Source of the DNA: Hygrocybe punicea
Lineage: Eukaryota; Basidiomycota; Agaricomycetes; Agaricales; Hygrophoraceae
Direction: 5' to 3'
NCBI GenBank assembly: GCA_963556145.1
Contig: OY744465.1
Span: 1,302,001-1,366,000, forward strand
Length of the DNA: 64,000 nucleotides
Shown piece by piece: positions 3,001 to 48,739 of the stretch. The stretch's first letter is position 1. Every line of letters starts with the position of its first letter. The notes under the pieces are model-generated. The model was not told the origin of the DNA. It made no database searches and worked only from the letters and a program-made list of their open reading frames with translations. The position numbers were made by a program, and so were the translations under genes.

Positions 3001-5121
3001 GAAGAAGATGTCCAACTGAGGCTTGCTTTGGAAAACATGAGATACAAAGCATGTACTCCCAAAGATATTGCATTTCTTCGTACTCGTGTTGCAGGAAAAG
3101 GTCCAAATGATCCAAAATTAGCCCAAAAGAAATTCAGGAATGTGTCAGTTATAACTGCATTGAATGCACAAAAAGACAAAATCAATGAACTTGGTATTCA
3201 ACGTTTTGCTGCTGAAAATAGGAGACCATTAACATCATTCTATTCCATAGACAGATGGAATGATCCTACTAGTTCCAATAGCAAAAGAAAATCTCATCAC
3301 ATGTCAACAATTTTGGATCCTATTCGACACACAAAGATATTGGAACCTTCACTCCAAAAGCTACTTTGGAGCCAACCACATGCATCATCCTCTGATCATA
3401 TACCAGGAAGATTGGACTTATGTGTAGGCATGCCAGTGATGCTGAGGAACAATGATGCAACAGAGTGCTGCATTACCAAAGGAGCAGAGGGCATAGTTGT
3501 GGGTTGGCAGAGTGCAATAGGTCCTGAGCAACAAACTGTACTGGACACTTTATTTGTCAGATTATTGAATCCTCCAAAAAAAATTAACATAGAAGGACTT
3601 CCTGAAAATGTTGTGCCGATTACAAAACATGTCACTTCCACCATGTGCTCATTACCCAATGATGATGTGATATCTTTGTCAAGAGAACAAGTGTTGGTAC
3701 TACCTAATTTTGCAATGACTGATTATGCATGTCAAGGACGTACTCGTCCTAACAATGTAGTTGACCTCAGTAGTTGTAGAAACCACCAATCCTATTATAC
3801 TTGCTTATCAAGAAGTGCTTCTGCAGCAGGAACTATCATCATGCAAGGCTTTGATCCTAAAGTAATTACTGGGGGTGCTTCTGGATATCTCAGGCAGGAA
3901 TTCAGAGAATTAGAACTGCTTGATGAGATTACCAAACTGAAATATCAAGGACTCTTACCAGACCATGTCAAGGGAGATCAGCGAAATTCTATCATTGATC
4001 AATTTAGAAAATGGAAAGGAAAGTCATATATTCCAAAAAACATTCATCATGCTATCGCATGGAAAGCCACGGAGCAACTAAATCAATACACAACACAGCC
4101 CTCTCCATGGCAATTAATTAAACATATGAACAAAAATCAAAAGGCAGATTTCAGAAACCTCAACTTTGTTCCTGCAAAAGGAACTGTTCCAATCACTGTC
4201 ACTCATAAAAATTCGATGGCCAATGTATTGCAAAATAAAAAACGAAAATTACAACAAGTTGTAAGTTCATCTTCCATAGTGAAAAAAAGACGAAAAACAA
4301 GTACTATTGAATTAAATGAACCAAAAGGGTTTATATGGGATGCGGAAGATTGGAGCTGTGCTTATGATTCACTCTTTACAATATTACTAGCAATATGGAA
4401 TGAAGATCCATCAAGTTGGAAAAAAAGATTCAATAGCATCAATGAAATATTAAAGATTTTGAGCTTAGGATTCAAACGATCCAAGAATCACACAACAGAT
4501 TTAGAAACAGTTAGAAATACAATCAGACATTTATTGCATCAAGATAAACCCGAAATATTTCCTTATGGTCAAGTTGGCATTGCCATAAGTGATTTGGCCC
4601 ATTATATAATGAAAGCAAATGAACCAATGACTTCAACTTGTCTTAAATGTATCAATTGTGAAAACATAACCATTCTGGAAAATGATAGATGTGACGCCAT
4701 CTTTCATTGTTCATATTCATTTTCTGGAACAATCTCAACATGTCTTGCTCAAATCATAGTTAATAGACAACGGCACAAATGTCAATTGTGTTGGGGAGAG
4801 ATTACTAAATTTATTGCATTTAACAAAATTCCACCTCTAATCATGTTTACAGTTGACTCTATTGAGAATTTAATAATTAGTCAAGTTATAAACTTGTCAA
4901 TTGATGACATATCCACTGCTTACACATTGAGAGGAATTGTGTACTTTGGTGATGCACATTTTACTGCCCGCATATTCATCAACAGTATGGTATGGTTTCA
5001 TGATGGTATATCAACCAGATCAATTTGTATTAATGAAGGTGATATAGATGACTTTTCAAATATTAATTTATTGTCATGTAATGGTAATAATGCTGTACTG
5101 TTTATATATGCTCAATCTTAA
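1..5121 (+). CDS. Helitron Rep-helicase (RepHel), 5'-partial, with C-terminal USP-like domain
   Basis: Open in frame 1 from the window edge. Residues are numbered from the Met at 139, which is internal: conserved Helitron_like_N sequence (NPVAGARFFHF) precedes it. HUH nuclease: HLH at 36-38 and the paired tyrosines Y226 and Y230 (YITDY). PIF1-type helicase: Walker A GGMAGTGKS at 781-789 and Walker B FIDE with D857/E858. The protein nicks and unwinds DNA during rolling-circle transposition. After the helicase there is a region resembling a ubiquitin-specific protease: a Cys box (WSCAYDS, C1407), zinc-type CxxC pairs (C1501/C1504/C1507 and C1548/C1551) and a His box (H1607, then W..D1622). No stop or frameshift over 1,660 codons. 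The Rep and helicase calls are firm; the protease call is inference from motif order. Confidence 0.9.
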   Translation: MNHPLCLYYADNKEKFYPKLRLPQDCYKLIANNPVAGARFFHFTTEMFIKHILGINESHPGLYGNTSGYYATVEEQGRLTLHLHMLLWIKGCLTPQEIRDKIMGENSDFQKRLVEYLESLCVGQFMTGSKDEVSQKMEQTMSKPEYQPPTCVMPDPPSYNCSMNCQYHNKRSTWWQRFQDVVDDLLLRLNVHNRHDGKKKPYCLNSKGECKRRFPRDIFQQTFVEPNTGALNLKHGEPWMNTVTPEVTYMLRCNSDVTSLLSGTAIKAIVAYITDYITKFSLKTYSIFEVIKSIFDKNSEMIGGDLKRKDKVRKLFTQIVNSLTSKMEIGAPMASLYVLGNPDHYTSHKFVPFFWRSYVKEVISAWSDEEIPNICEDQNNAQKVVIGKNNGAYIGLSKVNNYMFRPALYDNVSLYDWIRLATMEPKKRRTKTKTKRARKEPVQNQIFDNLGCDDLSDSCTEPTNVDYSSDDNLSDVVDNDILMEIDEIPKPDSLNRHAGTEIADKTNEVDLNKLTKFENDYTLHSNHPQYLTHHAKMKGNDPFIVPNFIPNTLPRADRGDREYYCCTMLTFFKPWRSGKELKSKLQTWDNAFIDHEFSKKELEIMKYFGLRYECLDARDDLSAKHQKNNTANIRYSWATSNGLDELDDMHNAEFAFNGDDFNNNIDEDNNDTEILLKLGQKGQKRKDQMLIAERTLKRSGWLDDCIDGTPDIGPLIPIEPPVVQSAKLWRTAVLAKKKEIIDDRNKNLPTNTATINKLGNFQYNDVKIVDAAYINHMFIPANRADRHLIDVTINDYKLNTDQKRAFHIIANHSTLINGSDKLRMYLGGMAGTGKSQVIKALTSFFGKHNENHRFVVLAPTGGAAALVNGSTYHSILGINQGGSSRSLAQVRANLDGVDYIFIDEVSMLSCRDMYKISAQCAKARGVYDEPFGGINMIFAGDFGQLPPAMSGAPLYSGTVGVQINSSQTIANQEAAIGKALWHQITTVVILRENMRQTNQSEEDVQLRLALENMRYKACTPKDIAFLRTRVAGKGPNDPKLAQKKFRNVSVITALNAQKDKINELGIQRFAAENRRPLTSFYSIDRWNDPTSSNSKRKSHHMSTILDPIRHTKILEPSLQKLLWSQPHASSSDHIPGRLDLCVGMPVMLRNNDATECCITKGAEGIVVGWQSAIGPEQQTVLDTLFVRLLNPPKKINIEGLPENVVPITKHVTSTMCSLPNDDVISLSREQVLVLPNFAMTDYACQGRTRPNNVVDLSSCRNHQSYYTCLSRSASAAGTIIMQGFDPKVITGGASGYLRQEFRELELLDEITKLKYQGLLPDHVKGDQRNSIIDQFRKWKGKSYIPKNIHHAIAWKATEQLNQYTTQPSPWQLIKHMNKNQKADFRNLNFVPAKGTVPITVTHKNSMANVLQNKKRKLQQVVSSSSIVKKRRKTSTIELNEPKGFIWDAEDWSCAYDSLFTILLAIWNEDPSSWKKRFNSINEILKILSLGFKRSKNHTTDLETVRNTIRHLLHQDKPEIFPYGQVGIAISDLAHYIMKANEPMTSTCLKCINCENITILENDRCDAIFHCSYSFSGTISTCLAQIIVNRQRHKCQLCWGEITKFIAFNKIPPLIMFTVDSIENLIISQVINLSIDDISTAYTLRGIVYFGDAHFTARIFINSMVWFHDGISTRSICINEGDIDDFSNINLLSCNGNNAVLFIYAQS

Positions 5122-5158
5122 TATGTGTTCTCTTGCTAAAAGAAGGGACGAGTAACAT

Positions 5159-5190
5159 GCCATGCAAAGCAATGGCCCACACCCCACTAG
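5159..5190 (+). repeat. Helitron 3' terminus: hairpin plus CTAG
   Basis: GCCAT at 5159-5163 and ATGGC at 5172-5176 form a short stem with an 8-nt loop. Ten bases later comes CTAG with T after it. The stem is short, but the position is confirmed by the coding sequence resuming at 5191 on the minus strand. Confidence 0.7.
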
Positions 5191-5265
5191 TTATCTGTGA
5201 AGACTGCCTGAATTGGTTGATGGCCATAGAGCTGAAGAGAGTTGGAAATTTCTGCAATTGCTGGC

Positions 5266-5567
5266 TACGGTTGGCGGAATGGCCGCGGTTCGATTCAACC
5301 AGCGTGTCAGATTAATATCATAGATTATTATATAAACTCGATGTTTATAATATTATTTTTCATTAGATAATTGCCTATGCCTATAATTGAACAGCAGGCA
5401 ACAATAATATATTTCGGGGGGGGGGGTCAACGAGACACACAGAATGACTACATATATCAACAAGGTGCAATCCGGACACTTGGAGGGGGGAAGGGGATCA
5501 ACGAGGTGCATAGAATGACACTATATACATCAAAAAGAGGCAGTCATGACACAGTCGAGGGAGGCGG
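5266..5567 (+). repeat. Left TIR of the 5.7-kb element
   Basis: Pairs with 10748-10978. The outer ~80 bp are nearly identical to the other arm; the inner part (G-runs alternating with TCAACGAG and AGAATGACTACATA) is roughly 90% similar. This arm carries about 60 extra bases near 5349-5410. The inner edge abuts the Mug135-like stop codon. Confidence 0.85.
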
Positions 5568-6476
5568 CTACTCTGTGATCGGTACCATGCACCCAATGGC
5601 AACACGTATGTCCTCACGCATGGCGCGTATAGTCTTGGTCCCAACCCGGGAATTAGGATGGTAAAATTGATAGTATTCTTTCAATTTATCACCGTTAAGA
5701 GCTTTGAGTCCGGCCGGATCTCGGATAGGCTGGAGGTTGACCTAAGCATAGAACGTCAGAGTGAACAGTGGGAAAGATAAGAATAACCAGTTATATACCT
5801 CTGCAAGCTTCTTGCCAGTCGGAGATAGCACTTCTTCATATTTGATGGTCGAACCGTCAAATAATTGGCGGTTTACAGCCTGCGAAAGAGTCACTCATTT
5901 AAAATGTTAGTACATATATCAGCCTACCTTAGACGCCTGCACCTTGATGATATTCACATCACTTTTGATCTCCGTGATATCCAGGGCAAGCTGGTCCACC
6001 TTAGCCACAAGGTGTCGTATGCTGGTCTTGACATGTCGGATTTCATCCCTAATGTTCGGAATTTCTGCTAAACTTGCTTTCATCCTTTCGATATTGGCCG
6101 ACATGGGATCTATCATTTGCTGAAACCAAGCAGGCGGTAAGCCTATACAAGTTAGTCTTTTTATTTTATTTTTTATTTTCATGGCTTACTCCTGTCCAAG
6201 TCTTTGTAGCCGTGAAGAACTTGCGCCTCGTATACGACAGCATCAACTACTTCTACCCTGGTTGTTCGATTTGCAGAATCTGTAGTGGCAATGTGGTGAG
6301 AAGAATATATCAATTGCATGAGAAGAACCTTGCGCATGTTCAACAGCTTTGCGGTATTGTCTAGCATCAAAAACATCTTCGTAGGTGACAGGGTTACCAG
6401 GTGCGGTTGGAAGTCGTATGTTGGCATCAATTCTACCAAGAGGTCCGAGTCTGGGTAGTTGGATTGGATTCGCCAT
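5568..6476 (-). CDS. Mug135-like coiled-coil protein (transposon cargo)
   Basis: Multi-exon minus-strand gene, ATG at 6474-6476 (MANPIQLPRLGPLG), stop TAG at 5568-5570. The order is a short N-terminal segment, a middle exon (VEVVDAVVYEAQVLHGY), a heptad-rich coiled coil around 5.92-6.15 kb (MKASLAEIPNIRDEIRHV, then VAKVDQLALDI), and a conserved end with LNGDKLKEYYQFY then VGTKTIRAMREDIRVAIG. The C-terminal pattern resembles the Mug135 C-terminal domain of basidiomycete proteins; that assignment is from memory and moderate. It lies 115 bp downstream of the alpha-kinase on the same strand. Function unknown; it could be a structural or DNA-binding partner in transposition. Exact splice sites are approximate. 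Confidence 0.6.
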
Positions 6477-6590
6477 GATGGGGAAGTCAACAAGCCTATT
6501 ATCTGATGTTCACACGGGATGCAAGATAAAGGTATTAATGCGGGCCAGTTGGCTGTAAGCTATGAGTACGAGAAACAAAGTAAAAGCATA

Positions 6591-8985
6591 TTAAGAGTCC
6601 TCTGAAAATTGGCCACCGTCATTTCCATTCTCATTCTCATCAACCTGCACATCAAATGTATCTAATGCGACCTCGGAATCAAGCCCAAGAGCGATGCACA
6701 CCTGTCCGCAGGTGTGATCATTTAGAAATGTCTTTATACCGTCGACACCGAAATCACCAACACCAGATTTACTGAAAAAGAAAAAATTAACACCGTAATA
6801 TGTCTGACAGCGAGAACTTACCCGGTTATAGTGTGAGTCATAATATCGAACAAAACCAAAAAATCCTGACCATTAACCAAGGTAGGAGAACCTAAAGTTC
6901 GGTAAGGAGATAGTGTTGCGGACATGTATTCGCTTACCTTGAATATCAGCAAATACCATCTCCTTGTTGCTGTGACCGTAGACAAAATGTGCAAGTGCAA
7001 ATACAGTTAGGCTGCGCAGATCTTTCTTGTTTGTAGTATGTGTGAGGGTCCCGCTGTACCGAATAGCAGTAGTGGGGCGCTGTTTCTCTACGAGCCACCA
7101 GATGGGTTTCTCATCGGGGGATTGACCGGAGGCAGGGGTTGGATTTCCTTCCTCTTCTCCAAGAAAGGCATCAGCAAACATGATGTCTAGTCGTAATATG
7201 AGCTTGGTCAGTGGCATTGTGAGCAATACCAACAACATACATTTGTCGACAGCAACACCCTTCCTCTGAGCAAACTTATAGAATGCCTTGAGGAACCATT
7301 GTCCAAGCGCTAGCCGACTCAACTCTGCCTGGATCTGAATATTATTATCACTGACAGAAACAGCATTGCCCGGTTCATCTTCATCAAAAAGCTCGTCTTG
7401 CTCATTGAGACGGAAAAACCGTTTGACGGCAAAGCGTCCATTTGATGTCACGAGCTATAATAGTGTCCGGTGAGTTGCAAAGAAAGATCAACAATCACAT
7501 ACATCGTAGACATGTTTCATACTGCCAGAATTTGACGGATTATCTCCTAACTCGCCAAAGATACTTTTTCCAGTTTTCTCAAATGTGCAATCAGCTGTTT
7601 CATCGTCAACACGGCAAATAATTTTTTTCAGGCTGACAAAAGTTCGGGTGAGAATGACTGATTGTTCGGTCCAGCCTGACAAGCGAAAGCTGGATTGCAT
7701 TGTTCCTGTGGATGATATCAGTCAAATTGAAAATTATTGATGAAAATTACCACCTACCACCTGTACATGCGCGCTTGCTAGCAGCAGTATCTGTGTCACC
7801 GTCATTTTCTATCTCCTCATCCCGAACACGTTTTTTGCGTAGCGATTGCCCCTTTCCACACCTTCCATCATATTCTGCAGCCTCTGCTCGCTCCAGCCAC
7901 TGCATCCCAAGAAAGTTTGTCATCATCAAGCGTGGAACATTAAAACAAAATCATACCGCTTCAAAATTAATGTACATTTCCAAACAAAGAAATGGTATTT
8001 TGGTTTTTGAATGATGCTTCCACATTGCTGGGACTTTTTGGGTAAAAATAGGTGCCATGTTCGGAGACGAATAAAAACGGTAAAACTCTAGTAGCGTGAG
8101 AGTCGCTGTGTCAGACTCTAGGACTTTGTTTCCATCAAATCGGATTGAGACGTCCTCACTATGTAATATTTGTCAGAGGGTTATAGTTGATGGAGAGATG
8201 ACATACGGCAGCAATGGTAGCGAGCGCCTGCAAGTCCACTCGATACTAATTTGCTGTGTAATCTGTGCCTTAATATCTTCCATAAACAGTGAAACAGCCC
8301 AGCGCTTTGCACCACTACCAAGGTCGGCGTCGATACTTCGAGGATTCTTGCTGATGCGTACCTTCAAGTAACATGTAATACTGGTATACACTGATGAAGA
8401 CGAAACATACCTGCCAGCAAATCATGACTTTCTCTTCACCTGGCGCGCCTCCTCCATTCTCATGCTGAAGAAGGTTTAATGAGCTGAGACTGGTGGTTGG
8501 CCCTCTGGTGGATGGCGGTAACAGCTTGAGACGTTCTCGTGTGGCAGCAGCACGAAGCTGGTGGGCATCAGGGATGTTTCGTGCGAGGGATTGGCTTTGG
8601 GATTGAAGCTGGGACGATGCCGCTGAAAAGTATAGATGTGAATAATATAGACTACACTAAATTGTGGGGAGGCAAACCATCGTCGGCATTTGCATTTGTA
8701 TGCTTGTTGCATAGAATAGAGCCGCATGTTTGAGTAGAGTTGAGAGGAGGTGGTGCCATATTGCGCCGAGTGACACCACAAGCCAGACATTGTGGCCATT
8801 TCTAGGCAAAATATAAGAAAACTTGTGGCAAAGGACGGAGATTAATGTACTGAGATATCAGAATATTCAATGGAGTCGCGTGTGTGAACTCCAAGCTTGA
8901 TACACTTGGGGCAAGGACCATCACTCTGCCGTAGCGGGAAGGTTATGCCGCAACCGTCACATTCAGAGTTGTTGTTGTCATCCAT
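6591..8985 (-). CDS. Alpha-type (MHCK/EF2K-like) protein kinase, transposon cargo
   Basis: Multi-exon minus-strand gene starting at the ATG 8983-8985 (MDDNNNSECDGCG), stop TAA at 6591-6593. The N-terminus has paired CxxC zinc motifs (CDGCG...CPKC, then CLACG...CGSILC), a Q/S-rich linker, then an alpha-kinase catalytic domain: FLKAFY, AFLGEEE, WLVEKQR, RYSGTL, FALAHFVYG, FADIQG, LFDIMTHT. It ends with the C-terminal block SGVGDFG plus HTCGQVCIALGL, the family's zinc-binding end. Alpha-kinases transfer phosphate to Ser/Thr but are unrelated in sequence to ordinary kinases. Splice junctions I followed keep frame (an intron after IEYSDIS; another joining NADD to AASSQLQ). Domain order looks complete. 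The role inside a transposon is unknown. Confidence 0.82.
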
Positions 8986-9152
8986 ATGCAGAGGAATGTT
9001 TAAAGGAGGGTTTTGTGCAGGAAAAAAGTCGCTGCTGTTAGGTAAAAGAGTGTGATGTGAAGTGATGGTTAGGGAAAAAAAACGCAAAATAGCAGCGGAC
9101 TTTGTCACACCATTGACAACAACCTGAATTATTTTGAACATCCCTGACCTCC
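8986..9152. promoter_or_regulatory. Divergent promoter region of the 5.7-kb element
   Basis: 167 bp separate the start codons of the alpha-kinase (minus) and the DDE transposase (plus). A shared bidirectional promoter is inferred from geometry only; no specific site was recognised. Confidence 0.45.
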
Positions 9153-10742
9153 ATGCCGAATCCTGAGGGCAAAAACGGCTATGGCGAAAAAATCTGTAAG
9201 TTAAATTCCACTTGAAGTACGCTACTTACATTCGGCTTCCTAGACCCTCCTGACGACATCCTCAGGGATTCACTTATGGAGTATACTCGACGTGGACTGA
9301 AAAGAGAGGAGAAAATCAAGAGATTGAAGGAAGACTACAACTTAGCCATTTGGTGAGTGTCTGCTAGAGATGTCCATACTACTTGCCTGAAGATGAATGA
9401 TGATAGCACAACTACTCTGAAGGAGCTGGAGTGCCGGCTGGGAATTCCATCTGTTCGAAAGCCTCTTGCTCCAGAGGTTGCCAGGCAGCTGGTCATTGAT
9501 GTTGTTGACAAGGATGTTGTGCAGAACAATGGGCCAAACTTTGTGCAAGTCATGTTGCGGCAGAAAGGAATGCTTGTTGCAAGGTACAAAAGCCGGCTGT
9601 GCAGCATATGTTGATTGTTGTCAGCTGAATCAGACTTTCACAGGCAAAGTGTTCGTAACATTATGCTTGAACATTTTCCTCTCGGCTTCAACAAACGATT
9701 CCCTGGTAGAAATCGAGGGATGGTTCGACGACCATTATCAGCAATCGGTCCTTATCACGAAATATCTTCTGATGGTCATGAGAAACTCTCACAACAGGCT
9801 CTTGACATGGGCGAAATCGGGTTACCAATATACGCATATAAAGATAAATGGAGCGATGTTCTGTTAAAGTTATCTGTTGTGCCCAACTGTCGCAATGCAG
9901 GGGCCATTGGCCACCTTTACTTAGACTTTATAACCGAAATTGGAGGTAAGAGATTTCATCTGGAGGACTTCACTTCGATCTCAAAATGAACAGGTATCCC
10001 AATCCAATCAACAACAGACAAAGGCTCGGAAATTGGATGGCAGTATGCATTCCAGGATGCTCTTCGGTGAGTAACATCAAGCTGCTTATGGTGCATTTAT
10101 TGAATTGGACCTACAGGAACACATATGCACCGGACATCGATACTGATACTTTCCCTTCATACGTTATTCTTCCGAGTCCCCACCATACGACCATTGAGGG
10201 TTTTTGGCGATGGCTTAAAGAGAAAACTGGCCTCAACATTAAGGACCACGTACTGCGCGGCAAACGAGAGCATATCTTCAATCCGAATGTGCCGTTCCAT
10301 AAGTTGGTTTGGTACCCTGCCGTGACACGTAGCCTTCACACTGACTACATGAAAAATACACAGGGATCTATTCAACTGGATATTCCCACCTCTCGTTCAA
10401 GCTGAACTTGACGATTTTTGCAAGTGGTGGAATTACCATCGGGTTCGCACTCAGGCTGATAAAGCAATGCCTTCTGGACATGTCCCAATTGATGTTCTTG
10501 AGCATCCAACCCTTTACGGAGGGCTTAACTGCCTCATTCCTGTCCCTACACAAGCCATTGATCATCTCCAGGAGTACCTTGTGGAAGAAGTTGGGCCGCG
10601 GAGTACCTATCTTGACTGGGTCAGTGAAGACTTTTTGGCTGTTGCTGAAGCGGCACACCAGTCCCTCGGTAATCCGGTGATAACCTTTACAAATTGCTGG
10701 GATATATTTCATGACATTTCGACAGTGATTGCTGCATTGTAA
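9153..10742 (+). CDS. DDE transposase with integrase-core domain
   Basis: Seven exons with GT-AG introns: 9153-9195, 9244-9352, 9407-9583, 9644-9945, 9994-10066, 10117-10302 and 10364-10742. Spliced length is 1,269 nt, about 422 residues, with no stop or frameshift. The N-terminus is helical and DNA-binding-like (GLKREEKIKRLKED, then LKELECRLGIPSVRKP). Candidate catalytic triad: D in ISSDGHEKL, D in TTDKGSE, E in TIEGFWRWL, the spacing of mushroom integrase-core transposases. It would cut and join the element's TIRs. The stop codon lies at the inner edge of the right TIR. The acceptor of exon 3 was chosen because it keeps the family-like TLKELECRLG in frame. Confidence 0.82.
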
Positions 10743-10747
10743 TAATA

Positions 10748-10978
10748 ACCCCCCCCCTCGACTGTGCCTCTTGTTGATGTATATAGTGTCATTCTGTCCG
10801 CCTCGTTGATCCCCTTCCCCCCCCCGAGTGTCCGGATTGCGCCTTGTTGATATATGTAGTCATTCTGTGTGTCTCGTTGACCCCCCCCCCCCGAAATAAA
10901 CATCAAGTTTATATAATAATCTATGATATTAATCTGACACGCTGGTTGAATCGAACCGCGGCCATTCCGCCAACCGTA
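10748..10978 (-). repeat. Right TIR of the 5.7-kb element
   Basis: Reverse-complement partner of 5266-5567, ending CCGCCAACCGTA at 10978 and followed by the TGCTGGC duplication. It begins within a few bases of the transposase stop codon at 10742. Confidence 0.85.
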
Positions 10979-12329
10979 TGCTGGCATAAACTGGTTATGG
11001 GCCTTGCTTGGTGTGAGAACCATTGACCAAATCTCAGTGTATTCATTGACACAAGTATGCAATCCTCCTGCAAACACTGTTTCCCCATTGACTTTGCCAA
11101 GGTGCTTAATGACCTAACAATGAGATGTTGTGAGGACATGAATATCAAGATGAGATGAAGGCTCATACCTTATAGCTATGGTCAATTTGGATAACATTTG
11201 CAGATAGCATTGCCATATGCTGGTCAATTTCAGTAGCATGGGATGCAATATATGTCACGTAAAATTGTCGAAAGTAGGTGGCACATGGTGTGAATCCAGC
11301 ATACCCAGCATTGTCACTGAATAGACTAAACGGTTGGAATTTTCCTAGTAGTCATCCAGCCGGAGAATGAAGACGAATATAAACCATTTCAAGATATTGC
11401 CGATGCAAGTTCTCATGTTTCAGATATGGAATGTGTGAATCATCTCTGAGAATGGTCCAGGGCCAATTCCATGTTGAAAACAAGACCGCATCAGGGCAAC
11501 GACTTGGTCAGTGAGACTGCTCCGATATGTGAGGTGAAAAGTGAAATTCAGGGAAAGTGATGGCGGAAGGGCTGCAACAAGGGCCGGGCTCCAGCTCTGA
11601 TATGTCTTCAAGCAAACTCCACAAGAGTAGCAATAGCCAATGATGTAAATGCATTCATGCAGGTCAACTACACAGCGTGGAGAGGCAGGCCAGCCTTTCT
11701 GCCAAAGGTATATGGTATTGTTATTTGCAGTTGCACAATTGTTTTCCAAGCAGGCAGGGCATGGGATACGCTGTGTAAATAGGTGGGGAAGCCAGATGAA
11801 ATATCAAGGATGATAAAAGTCCTGAGGACTTGGCTGAAATTTGTGGTCCACAGTAAAGAATGGGAAAGGTACACCATCAATGAATGTGTGTCGATCATAG
11901 CATGTTGGCCGTTTAGATGGATTCCTTTTCATCTCGGCAGTAAGCCTCTCACGAACATCTAGGGATGACCATGGGTTTGGGTCAACCCGCGGTATTACCA
12001 AAACAGGTTGCGCGGGTATGGGTAGGGTGTTTGGTTTCGTCACCCGTGACCATACCGTGACCCGTACCCACGGTTTGGCGGTGTGTCACGGGTTCATCAC
12101 ACAACCACCACAACCACCTCGACGGCTACGACCAAGGGCAAGCAAGCGCACGGCGACCAGACGACCAACCGCAACAGTCAAAGGAAGGAGCAGGGAAGCG
12201 GCTGGGGGGTGGTGCTCCCACTTCCCAGCCTAGGTAAGTCTCAATTTCTGATCAAGTAATGAACTGTAGCTAACTACGCTATGACAACAACAACAACAGC
12301 ATGGGGCAACAGCACACAACGACAACGAT

Positions 12330-46945: not shown

Positions 46946-48739
46946 CTAGACTACATAAAGGTGTCTGCACATGTCAAATGCAGTCGTCCAACGAAGCCAA
47001 TATGAAATGGTGCTTCTACCCTCCCAAAGTCCCTGAGTGCTCAGCCCCGCATCAAGGAATTGAATCTGCTCTTCTGTTAGTGGAGAAACCGGCCCCACAA
47101 CTTCAACGTTTGCAAAATTCTCCGGTACTTGAGGCTCAAAAGGGTTGTCTGCAAGAGTATTGTCAAGGTGAGCAGCAGCTTGATTTGCAGTATCATGATG
47201 TGTGCGAATACGGTGATCAGCGAGATCTTGCCAGTCAATTCCATATCCTGCAAGTTCATCCTCCGAAAGGTCTGCATTTGCATGCTCAATTCCCCTAGGA
47301 CCCTCTGCAATCATTCCAAAAAAAAACACATCATGTGGTGTGCATGATCGCTGTCCTCGAATTGACATGGTGTGGTTATTTCATGACCCCAACCAGTCTT
47401 CAATATCCTTGTTGATTTCGTGGAGGAAAAGATGGTGTAATAGCCAGATATGAGCATTGTTGCTCGAGTCGAGGTTATCATAGGCTTCAAGGTCATGGAA
47501 GAAGATTTTCCATTTTCCACCAAAACCCAAGGTGACGTCAACCCAGAGTCGTTCAATCCGAATGTTATGGACACTCCTGGAACAATAGTTTTGAGTATGG
47601 ATCATGAACCAGATCAATTACAGACCTTCCCCAGATATATGATCCGATACCATTGACATCTTCCATGCACTCTGCTACATCAAGATTCTCAGTGCTGTGG
47701 TCTCCTCGAACACGACTTGGCAACCCAAAGGTCTCAACTGCATCAAGAAAAAGGTTGAGAACTGTCTCGGCTCGGTTATTGTTACTGGCTCGCATTCCGA
47801 CAGCGAGTCTAGACTTTCCATCAATGAAGCCGTGAATGACAATCTTCCACCGAATGAGTCCTATAACTTGATAAACATCTGAGCACACACCAAGTTGAGC
47901 TACTTACCGTGCTGTCCATCATGGTGCCAAAGTGAATTTGGCCCAGGAACGGAGTATGTCCGACGTTCAATTCATTGCGGTCCAAAGTGAGCTGCAGGAG
48001 GACCATGAACTCATATGTATGATGCTTCTAAACGAGGTCGAGGGATCCGATGGCCAAGATGCTTGATATGACCAGTTATCATTCAACGACTGAACATTGG
48101 AAATGTTTCGACAATCTCCCGAACCATATCATCTAAAGCATTGTCGGAGAGGTCAGAGGATGATGCAGTGGATGAAGTGTATTGGTGATAAGTTGAGCCA
48201 TCTGCAGCCTCATGCTGAATGTGGACTGGATGCCTGGGTTCGACAAGTCCATATTCCAGAGCACGACGTCGAATTGTTCTTGCAGATGTTCCAAATACAG
48301 GTGCAAGGCCAGTGGGTCCTCGCATCTCAAGGGAAGTGGCAAGCATATTGCGATCAATCTCAACACAAGGTCGTCCCCGTCGCCCTGTGTAGAATGTTTG
48401 CATAAGTTCAATTGGCGGTGCATCTGGAGGATCTGCTGCTGCTGCTGCTGCTGCTGCACGATCCAAATGATCAAGCATTAAGTTGATGCTAGTATGAATC
48501 GTCTCTACCTCCTGTTGAGACAGAGTAGCTACATGCTAATTAAGCTGGCATTGAGCAGTTGAACAATTGATTGATCCAAACACTTACCTGCTCAATGACA
48601 GCAAGCAATCGCAGACACTCATTCCGAAGAGGACTCAATCGCGGTGCATCACCCACATGAATCTGTAATGCTGAGCGGATACGATCACCGAGTGCTTCAA
48701 ATGCAGCTTGAATATTCCGTCGTGGCCCTGGAAGCGACA
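46946..48739 (-). pseudogene. Integrase-core DDE transposase with four in-frame TGAs
   Basis: Starts MSLPGPRRNIQAAFEALG (48739). It has a helix-turn-helix-like part (GRPCVEIDRNMLATSLEMRG, TSARTIRRRALEYGL), then GHIKHLGHRIPRPRLEASY, GPNSLWHHDGQH, across an intron IRWKIVIHGFIDG, RVRGDHSTEN, SVHNIRIERLW and AHIWLLHHLFLHEIN. Candidate DDE: D in HHDGQH, D in GDHSTEN, E in IRIERLW. In-frame TGA at 48083, 48011, 47972 (family arginine) and 47381 (family tryptophan). Frame and splice sites otherwise intact. It is related in type to, but distinct from, the transposase at 9153-10742. TIRs not located. Confidence 0.75.

Follow-up and report, generated by a model that had tools for sequence, protein, structure and literature searches.

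An apparently intact IS3EU-like DNA transposon carrying an alpha-kinase gene and a Mug135-like gene in Hygrocybe punicea

The stretch of Hygrocybe punicea DNA analysed here (64,000 nucleotides, C7:1302001-1366000, hereafter the window) contains, at window positions 5266-10978, an alpha-kinase gene and a Mug135-like gene beside a DDE transposase gene, all three enclosed by inverted repeats. The locus raises the question of whether these genes move as one unit and, if so, whether the kinase and the Mug135-like protein belong to the workings of the element. We addressed it with the window and with searches of the 92.2-Mb genome (42 contigs). The reading that we prefer, with a probability of about 0.62, is that the 5,713-bp unit is an apparently intact, IS3EU-like cut-and-paste transposon, in which the kinase and the Mug135-like protein are probably standing, element-serving parts rather than recent cargo. 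The case for standing parts is made because the same gene order recurs in diverged families and because the genes appear to be constrained over that distance.

The mobile unit has terminal inverted repeats (TIRs) at both ends and the terminal motif TACGG..CCGTA. Comparison of the two ends places the left TIR, which begins with TACGGTTGGCGGAATGGCCGCGGTTCGATTCAACCAG, at 5266-5542 on the forward strand and the right TIR at 10765-10978 on the reverse strand. Complementarity is 99% over the outer 83 bp and 94% over an additional 127-bp pair, and the inner TIR (5416-5542 and 10765-10891) contains diverged units of about 71 bp with long G/C tracts. The 12-mer TACGGTTGGCGG has two exact matches in the window, both at the element ends; with up to two mismatches it has four, as compared to 2.55 expected, so that by itself it is weak evidence. 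The ends at 5266 and 10978 are therefore accepted because of the long TIRs rather than the 12-mer. A 7-bp target site duplication (TSD), TGCTGGC, abuts the element on both sides (5259-5265 and 10979-10985). When the two flanks were joined and searched against the genome (40 of the 389 candidates scored), a paralogous repeat at C3:755470-755789, in the region C3:755440-755800, spanned the joined flanks at 93%. This alignment is gapless near the junction and contains TGCTGGC only once. The whole 5.7 kb, three genes included, was therefore inserted as one piece, and the ends, TIRs and duplication claimed in the original prediction are borne out.

The empty site bears directly on another explanation, in which the three genes are not one unit but came to stand between two TIRs by chance, as independent host genes or as nested elements. 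Nesting does occur in this genome, as seen in a 20.9-kb TIR pair that encloses a kinase unit of another layout (C7:1402655-1423511) and in a 1.9-kb insert in the copy on contig C39. For the window element, nested independent genes were rejected, as the empty site covers the entire unit, and five bounded loci show these three genes in identical order; we consider this explanation extremely improbable. Separately, the left flank at 5016-5192 belongs to a high-copy repeat: of the 40 matches scored, 37 are at other places and have 98-100% identity; judged by these identities, an abundant and apparently recent repeat stops near 5192.

The transposase gene (9153-10742, forward strand) is modelled, like the other two, from splice signals and homology. 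It has seven exons and encodes 422 amino acids with an integrase-type DDE core, and its introns (48-61 nt) are all GT-AG, in line with the uninterrupted seven-exon gene that had been predicted. The rva_4 integrase core profile PF24764 matches the protein at E 5e-5 (23.4 bits, just below the cut-off of 26); of 21 homologues selected for comparison, 20 match it with E values of 0.01 or below. Sequence alignment gives D153, D219 and E262 as the putative catalytic residues; their equivalents in a Mycena venus homologue are D155, at least 90% conserved among 21 sequences, and D221 and E264, both invariant. No HHCC motif was seen by eye ahead of the DDE core in the 422-residue translation. The structural model of the Mycena venus homologue (mean predicted local distance difference test score, pLDDT, 82.9) matches a Tn7-type transpososome chain, the integrases of Rous sarcoma virus and prototype foamy virus, IstA, TnsB and Mu transposase at E 5.5e-6 to 1e-4. 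The whole-query template modelling (TM) scores of these matches are low (0.16-0.32), and an integrase catalytic core gives the best score over the target, 0.72. The predicted fold of the transposase group is thus integrase-like, and no sequence relative was found at E<=1 among 177,635 distinct sequences of the PDB.

The alpha-kinase gene (6591-8985, reverse strand) has eleven exons, all introns being GT-AG, and encodes 627 amino acids, with the kinase domain at residues 382-593 preceded by an N-terminal Cys-rich region. It matches PF02816 at E 5.5e-22 (79.2 bits; cut-off 21.3) and Dictyostelium myosin heavy chain kinase A (MHCK A) at E 5e-7. The catalytic Lys, the DIQ motif and the zinc-binding HxCxxxC motif are retained, and the alignment to MHCK A runs through DIQG, the Asp in the motif that follows, and HxCxxxC. 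In the aligned fungal kinases the N-terminal half is conserved and has no Pfam match of its own, except in one chimeric member. The structural model of the window kinase is poor (mean pLDDT 54), and its ubiquitin-like matches, at E 0.14-0.2, were too weak to be used.

The Mug135-like gene (5568-6476, reverse strand) consists of five exons (6476-6329, 6279-6190, 6142-5928, 5879-5799 and 5741-5568), its four introns being positioned by eye, and has an open frame of 235 amino acids. The protein matches PF08593 at E 1.8e-11 (44.6 bits; cut-off 23.8), and a heptad pattern indicative of a coiled coil at residues 105-146 was matched by none of 300 shuffled sequences. No homologue was found at E<=0.001 among 345 candidates.

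The three genes fill nearly the whole interior. The Mug135-like stop codon lies 25 bp from the left TIR edge at 5542 and the transposase stop codon 22 bp from the right TIR at 10765; 114 bp separate the kinase stop from the Mug135-like start, and the head-to-head start codons of kinase and transposase are 167 bp apart. This spacer (8986-9152) is identical at 167 of 167 positions in all three pairs of the window copy and its two nearest copies, which barely exceeds expectation, as the introns of the same copies are 99.2-99.4% identical. All three reading frames are open in the window copy, and the proposed intact kinase and Mug135-like genes between the TIRs are confirmed by their frames and domain matches. 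The shared divergent promoter proposed with them holds in part: kinase and transposase share the spacer, whereas the Mug135-like gene follows the kinase, downstream and on the same strand.

A genome-wide TIR search gave 16 matches. In all, the window element and four others were bounded at both ends. Two of the latter are recent copies of the window element: C1 (C1:2423586-2429399; ATCCTCC on each side, 7/7) and C39 (C39:367624-375316; ACTGCAC/ACTGCGC, 6/7), whose right arms are about 80 bp longer than that of the window element. Two belong to separate families, namely C3a (C3:4247472-4253355; TAGAG..CTCTA ends; AAATGCA/AAATGCG, 6/7) and C6a (C6:367548-375270; TACGG ends; TIRs of about 1.25 kb; CATTGGC on each side, 7/7). 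The TSD is thus 7 bp long in all five, with one mismatch in two of them, and TIR length ranges from about 200 to 1,250 bp. TACGG..CCGTA ends are present in the window element, C1, C39 and C6a, and C3a has TA..TA only. All five bounded elements, from three families, contain the three genes in one order and orientation, the genes of C3a and C6a being putative in their exon structure. Copies with the same TIRs and without the kinase and Mug135-like genes, which had been named as evidence against the original prediction, are therefore absent among the five elements read with both TIRs, and may still occur among the single ends.

Other remains of these elements are less complete. C6:7806436-7813508 (C6b) belongs to the C6a family as another copy and has the same gene order; its right end was not found. 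A sixth TIR pair, the 20.9-kb C7:1402655-1423511 of the C6a family, was read in part; a Mug135-like gene, part of a transposase and a kinase unit of the second layout described below were found in its interior, so that it apparently represents one kinase-carrying element inside another. Truncated or interrupted pieces occur at C36:3333153-3334395, C2:7814542-7824206 and places on C8, C9 and C23. For the single ends C2:7764819, C34:1940556 and C35:6713212 no inverted partner was found within 3 kb, and more single TIR ends lie at C34:248218 and C33:2596934.

The terminal blocks of the three families have TA..GT.G.C..AATGGYCRCGGTTC in common, and the outer block of the left TIR is thus partly kept across them. 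This conserved block is a likely candidate for the transposase binding site. A tRNA-like B-box appearance of the TIR (GGTTCGATTC) was considered and dropped, as the other two families retain AATGGYCRCGGTTC and not the full box.

Compared with C3a, C6a and C6b, the window element is highly diverged. Protein identity is 59-69% for the transposase, 50-57% for the kinase and 33-40% for the Mug135-like protein, and the proportion of synonymous differences (pS) is 0.73-0.82, near saturation. The proportion of nonsynonymous differences (pN) is 0.19-0.26, 0.28-0.33 and 0.38-0.46, respectively. These values come from homologous pieces only, and the synonymous rate (dS) was computable in one of the nine comparisons. 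They point to long-run purifying selection on all three genes, probably weakest for the Mug135-like gene.

To what extent, then, are alpha-kinases tied to such transposases in the genome as a whole? PF02816 gave 27 kinase places, and PF08593 gave 18 clusters of Mug135_C matches; the 72 matches of the window transposase fall into 31 clusters. Since scoring was by single exon and took in the best candidates, the counts are lower bounds. For 15 of the 27 kinase places a transposase cluster of the window type is no more than 5 kb away, where 0.095 would be expected from coverage, and chance co-location of kinase and transposase is rejected on this ground. That kinases are never linked to such transposases, the second finding that would have told against the original prediction, is clearly not the case. 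Copies within one family are not independent, and the linked kinases represent about eight families as judged by alignment and layout. Counted in the other direction, a kinase place lies 5 kb or less from 15 of the 31 transposase clusters, and the remaining 16 include truncated pieces and unread loci; one linked kinase, at about C3:7793900-7796326, was missed by PF02816. As for Mug135_C, such a transposase is found within 5 kb of 8 of the 18 clusters and within 10 kb of 11, the other seven being more distant.

PF24764 itself gave at least 75 clusters among the matches listed (150 of 180 candidates scored), three of which overlap the 31. None of the 72 other rva_4 clusters among these matches has a kinase place within 10 kb, and one of the 18 Mug135_C clusters lies within 10 kb of one of them. 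The window contains a PF24764 match outside the window-transposase group, at 47303-47858 (C7:1349303-1349858, reverse strand), with no kinase place within 10 kb. Among the unlinked kinase places, five (C3:48831, C35:6580935, C7:6847712, C7:7286347 and C6:166544) have equal open frames of 359 amino acids, and several of them lie near contig ends; possibly they form a separate kinase family, either mobile or subtelomeric.

Kinases and transposases of this group occur together in three arrangements. In the first, that of the window element, the Mug135-like gene and the kinase share one strand, and the transposase is head-to-head with the kinase. In the second, found at eight loci (C33, two on C34, two on C35, C36, C40 and C7:1409401), kinase and transposase are tail-to-tail. 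Two groups of these loci, one from C33, C7, C35 and C34 and one from the second C35 locus and C40, have shared DNA that is 74-94% identical within the group. No TIRs were found in the stretches read, although the C33 and C7 loci share an end, ...AACGGTA, whose partner was not found. In the third arrangement, transposase and Mug135-like gene are tail-to-tail with the kinase beyond (C3:7791605-7796326 and C3:6704382-6711210). A distant locus, C8:5865240-5867961, has a transposase and a Mug135-like gene, and no kinase was detected there.

Relatives in other fungi are consistent with a wider distribution of the pair. The transposase has 131 homologues, of which 120 are listed; mushroom-type fungi, Mycena among them, supply the closest named ones, with identities reaching about 60%. 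For the kinase, 8,000 candidates were scored and 11 homologues reached E<=0.001, eight of them with species names. For four of these eight, the contig matches that of a transposase homologue in species and size (Favolaschia claudopus, 2,068,807 bp; Galerina marginata, 1,602,056 bp; Mycena vulgaris, 429,372 bp; Mycena pura, 379,723 bp; 120 of the 131 transposase homologues compared), a match at the level of the contig that gives no gene-to-gene distance. In Hohenbuehelia grisea, the predicted protein P0010 combines a DDE_3 piece with an alpha-kinase; this may be an artefact of gene-model fusion, or else another type of association between transposons and kinases.

Several of these observations weigh against standing, element-serving parts, among them the putative exon structure of the C3a and C6a genes and the contig-level nature of the matches in other fungi. 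Twelve of the 27 kinase places are more than 10 kb from any transposase of the window type, and 10 of the 18 Mug135_C clusters are more than 5 kb from one. The eight tail-to-tail loci have no clear Mug135-like gene of their own in the stretches read, the exceptions being a weak match at C36:906409 (E 0.11) and, at a distance of 8 kb, a match to PF08593 at C36:898451; because of these loci, the pairing of kinase and Mug135-like gene seems not to be obligatory. Among the recent copies, genes are broken: the C1 kinase by a one-base frameshift, the C39 transposase by a 10-bp deletion and the C39 Mug135-like gene by the 1.9-kb insert, so that only the window copy of the three has all frames open. 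The ratios of nonsynonymous to synonymous rates (dN/dS) among these copies, 0.39-2.96 with few changes, give no sign of constraint on any gene, the transposase included, and their introns (99.2-99.4% identical) are no more diverged than the transposase and kinase exons (98.5-98.9%).

In another explanation, the kinase and Mug135-like genes are role-free passengers, host genes that an ancestor of the element took up on a single occasion. Transposons do capture host genes, and in addition to the lack of a selection signal in recent copies, the C8 locus without a detected kinase and the tail-to-tail loci without a clear Mug135-like gene fit this explanation. However, both proteins are still recognisable across families near synonymous saturation, and the kinase has stayed with the transposase group through three layouts, which is unexpected for a dead passenger. 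We therefore regard role-free passengers as rather unlikely.

If the two genes are instead standing parts of the element, its action could be pictured as follows. The transposase would recognise the conserved subterminal TIR block and make staggered cuts, resulting in the 7-bp duplications; the duplication and the empty site are observed, and the binding and cutting are the steps presumed to lie behind them. The kinase and the Mug135-like protein would serve the element, with the kinase phosphorylating a helical or coiled-coil substrate, either its Mug135-like partner or a host factor, and this phosphorylation may control transposition or escape from silencing. Activity on helical, coiled-coil substrates is known for alpha-kinases. 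Since the partner gene encodes a predicted coiled coil, the kinase may have its substrate in the Mug135-like protein; a host factor of silencing or repair could equally be the target. The fuller proposal, in which the pair forms a phospho-switch of a transposition or anti-silencing complex and such elements are a main source of the fungal alpha-kinase expansion, is offered only tentatively and is doubtful as a whole.

The pair could also act on the host instead of on transposition, for example as a module for drive or addiction, or by regulating development to the advantage of carriers. The conservation of both genes together with the element is compatible with this, and Spok genes are reportedly transposon-borne, kinase-domain spore killers in other fungi. 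In rusts, one alpha-kinase gene is given among 46 listed as under diversifying selection (PMC4150398). Against a host-acting pair, genes are broken in two of the three near copies; we judge it improbable.

The finding that 15 of 27 kinase places are linked to such transposases suggests that many alpha-kinases may be transposon genes. If so, they should be read first as element genes and not as host signalling or virulence genes; in rusts, a strong expansion of the family is described (PMC4469406). The proposal that these elements spread alpha-kinases is upheld as far as carriage is concerned, which is widespread (15 of 27 places; five bounded elements), whereas the 12 unlinked places indicate that they are not the sole vehicle. 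A transposon that retained a kinase over long evolutionary times would provide a handle on self-regulation or silencing evasion by eukaryotic elements, and a three-gene unit with defined ends allows piece-by-piece testing.

Judged by its ends, TIR length and predicted fold against published descriptions, the window element is IS3EU-like. IS3EU elements are described as having TA..TA ends, usually 6-bp TSDs and, as a criterion, no HHCC motif (PMC10045372). The TA..TA termini, the integrase-like DDE transposase and the lack of a visible HHCC motif agree with the IS3EU/GingerRoot superfamily, whereas the TSD is 7 bp rather than 6 bp, and kinase or coiled-coil accessory genes go unmentioned in the passages that describe the superfamily (PMC10045372). 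Closest are the TET-bearing IS3EU elements of rust fungi and Tuber, in all families of which a TET/JBP gene is stated to lie between the transposase and an alpha-kinase of opposite orientations (Kojima 2025, PMC12730594). The rust elements are given as having 6-bp TSDs, TIRs longer than 30 bp and TAYGG..CCRTA ends (PMC12730594). The window element resembles them in the kinase opposite the transposase, in TIRs of more than 30 bp and in the type of its ends. In contrast, it has only 167 bp between transposase and kinase, no TET/JBP domain among its three proteins in Pfam, a 7-bp TSD, a third, Mug135-like gene and an agaric-type host. KDZ and Plavaka elements with TET/JBP genes are likewise fungal DNA transposons with a conserved enzyme gene beside the transposase, but they belong to different transposase groups and carry a dioxygenase instead of a kinase (PMC12730594).

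Contrary to the original prediction, which knew of no such description, the kinase-transposase pair is thus already in print, in passing, for TET-bearing IS3EU elements (PMC12730594, section 4.1). For the Mug135-like third gene, the 7-bp TSDs in such elements and the genome-wide share of kinases, no description was found among the open-licence papers that the searches listed. The kinase has the catalytic and zinc-binding motifs of Dictyostelium MHCK A and eEF2 kinase; unlike these, the fungal proteins have a conserved N-terminal half, and the window kinase resides on a mobile element. What is new relative to the known systems is therefore an element without a TET gene and with a third gene, its 7-bp TSDs, the reshuffled layouts and the linkage of over half of the kinases detected in the genome to such transposases.

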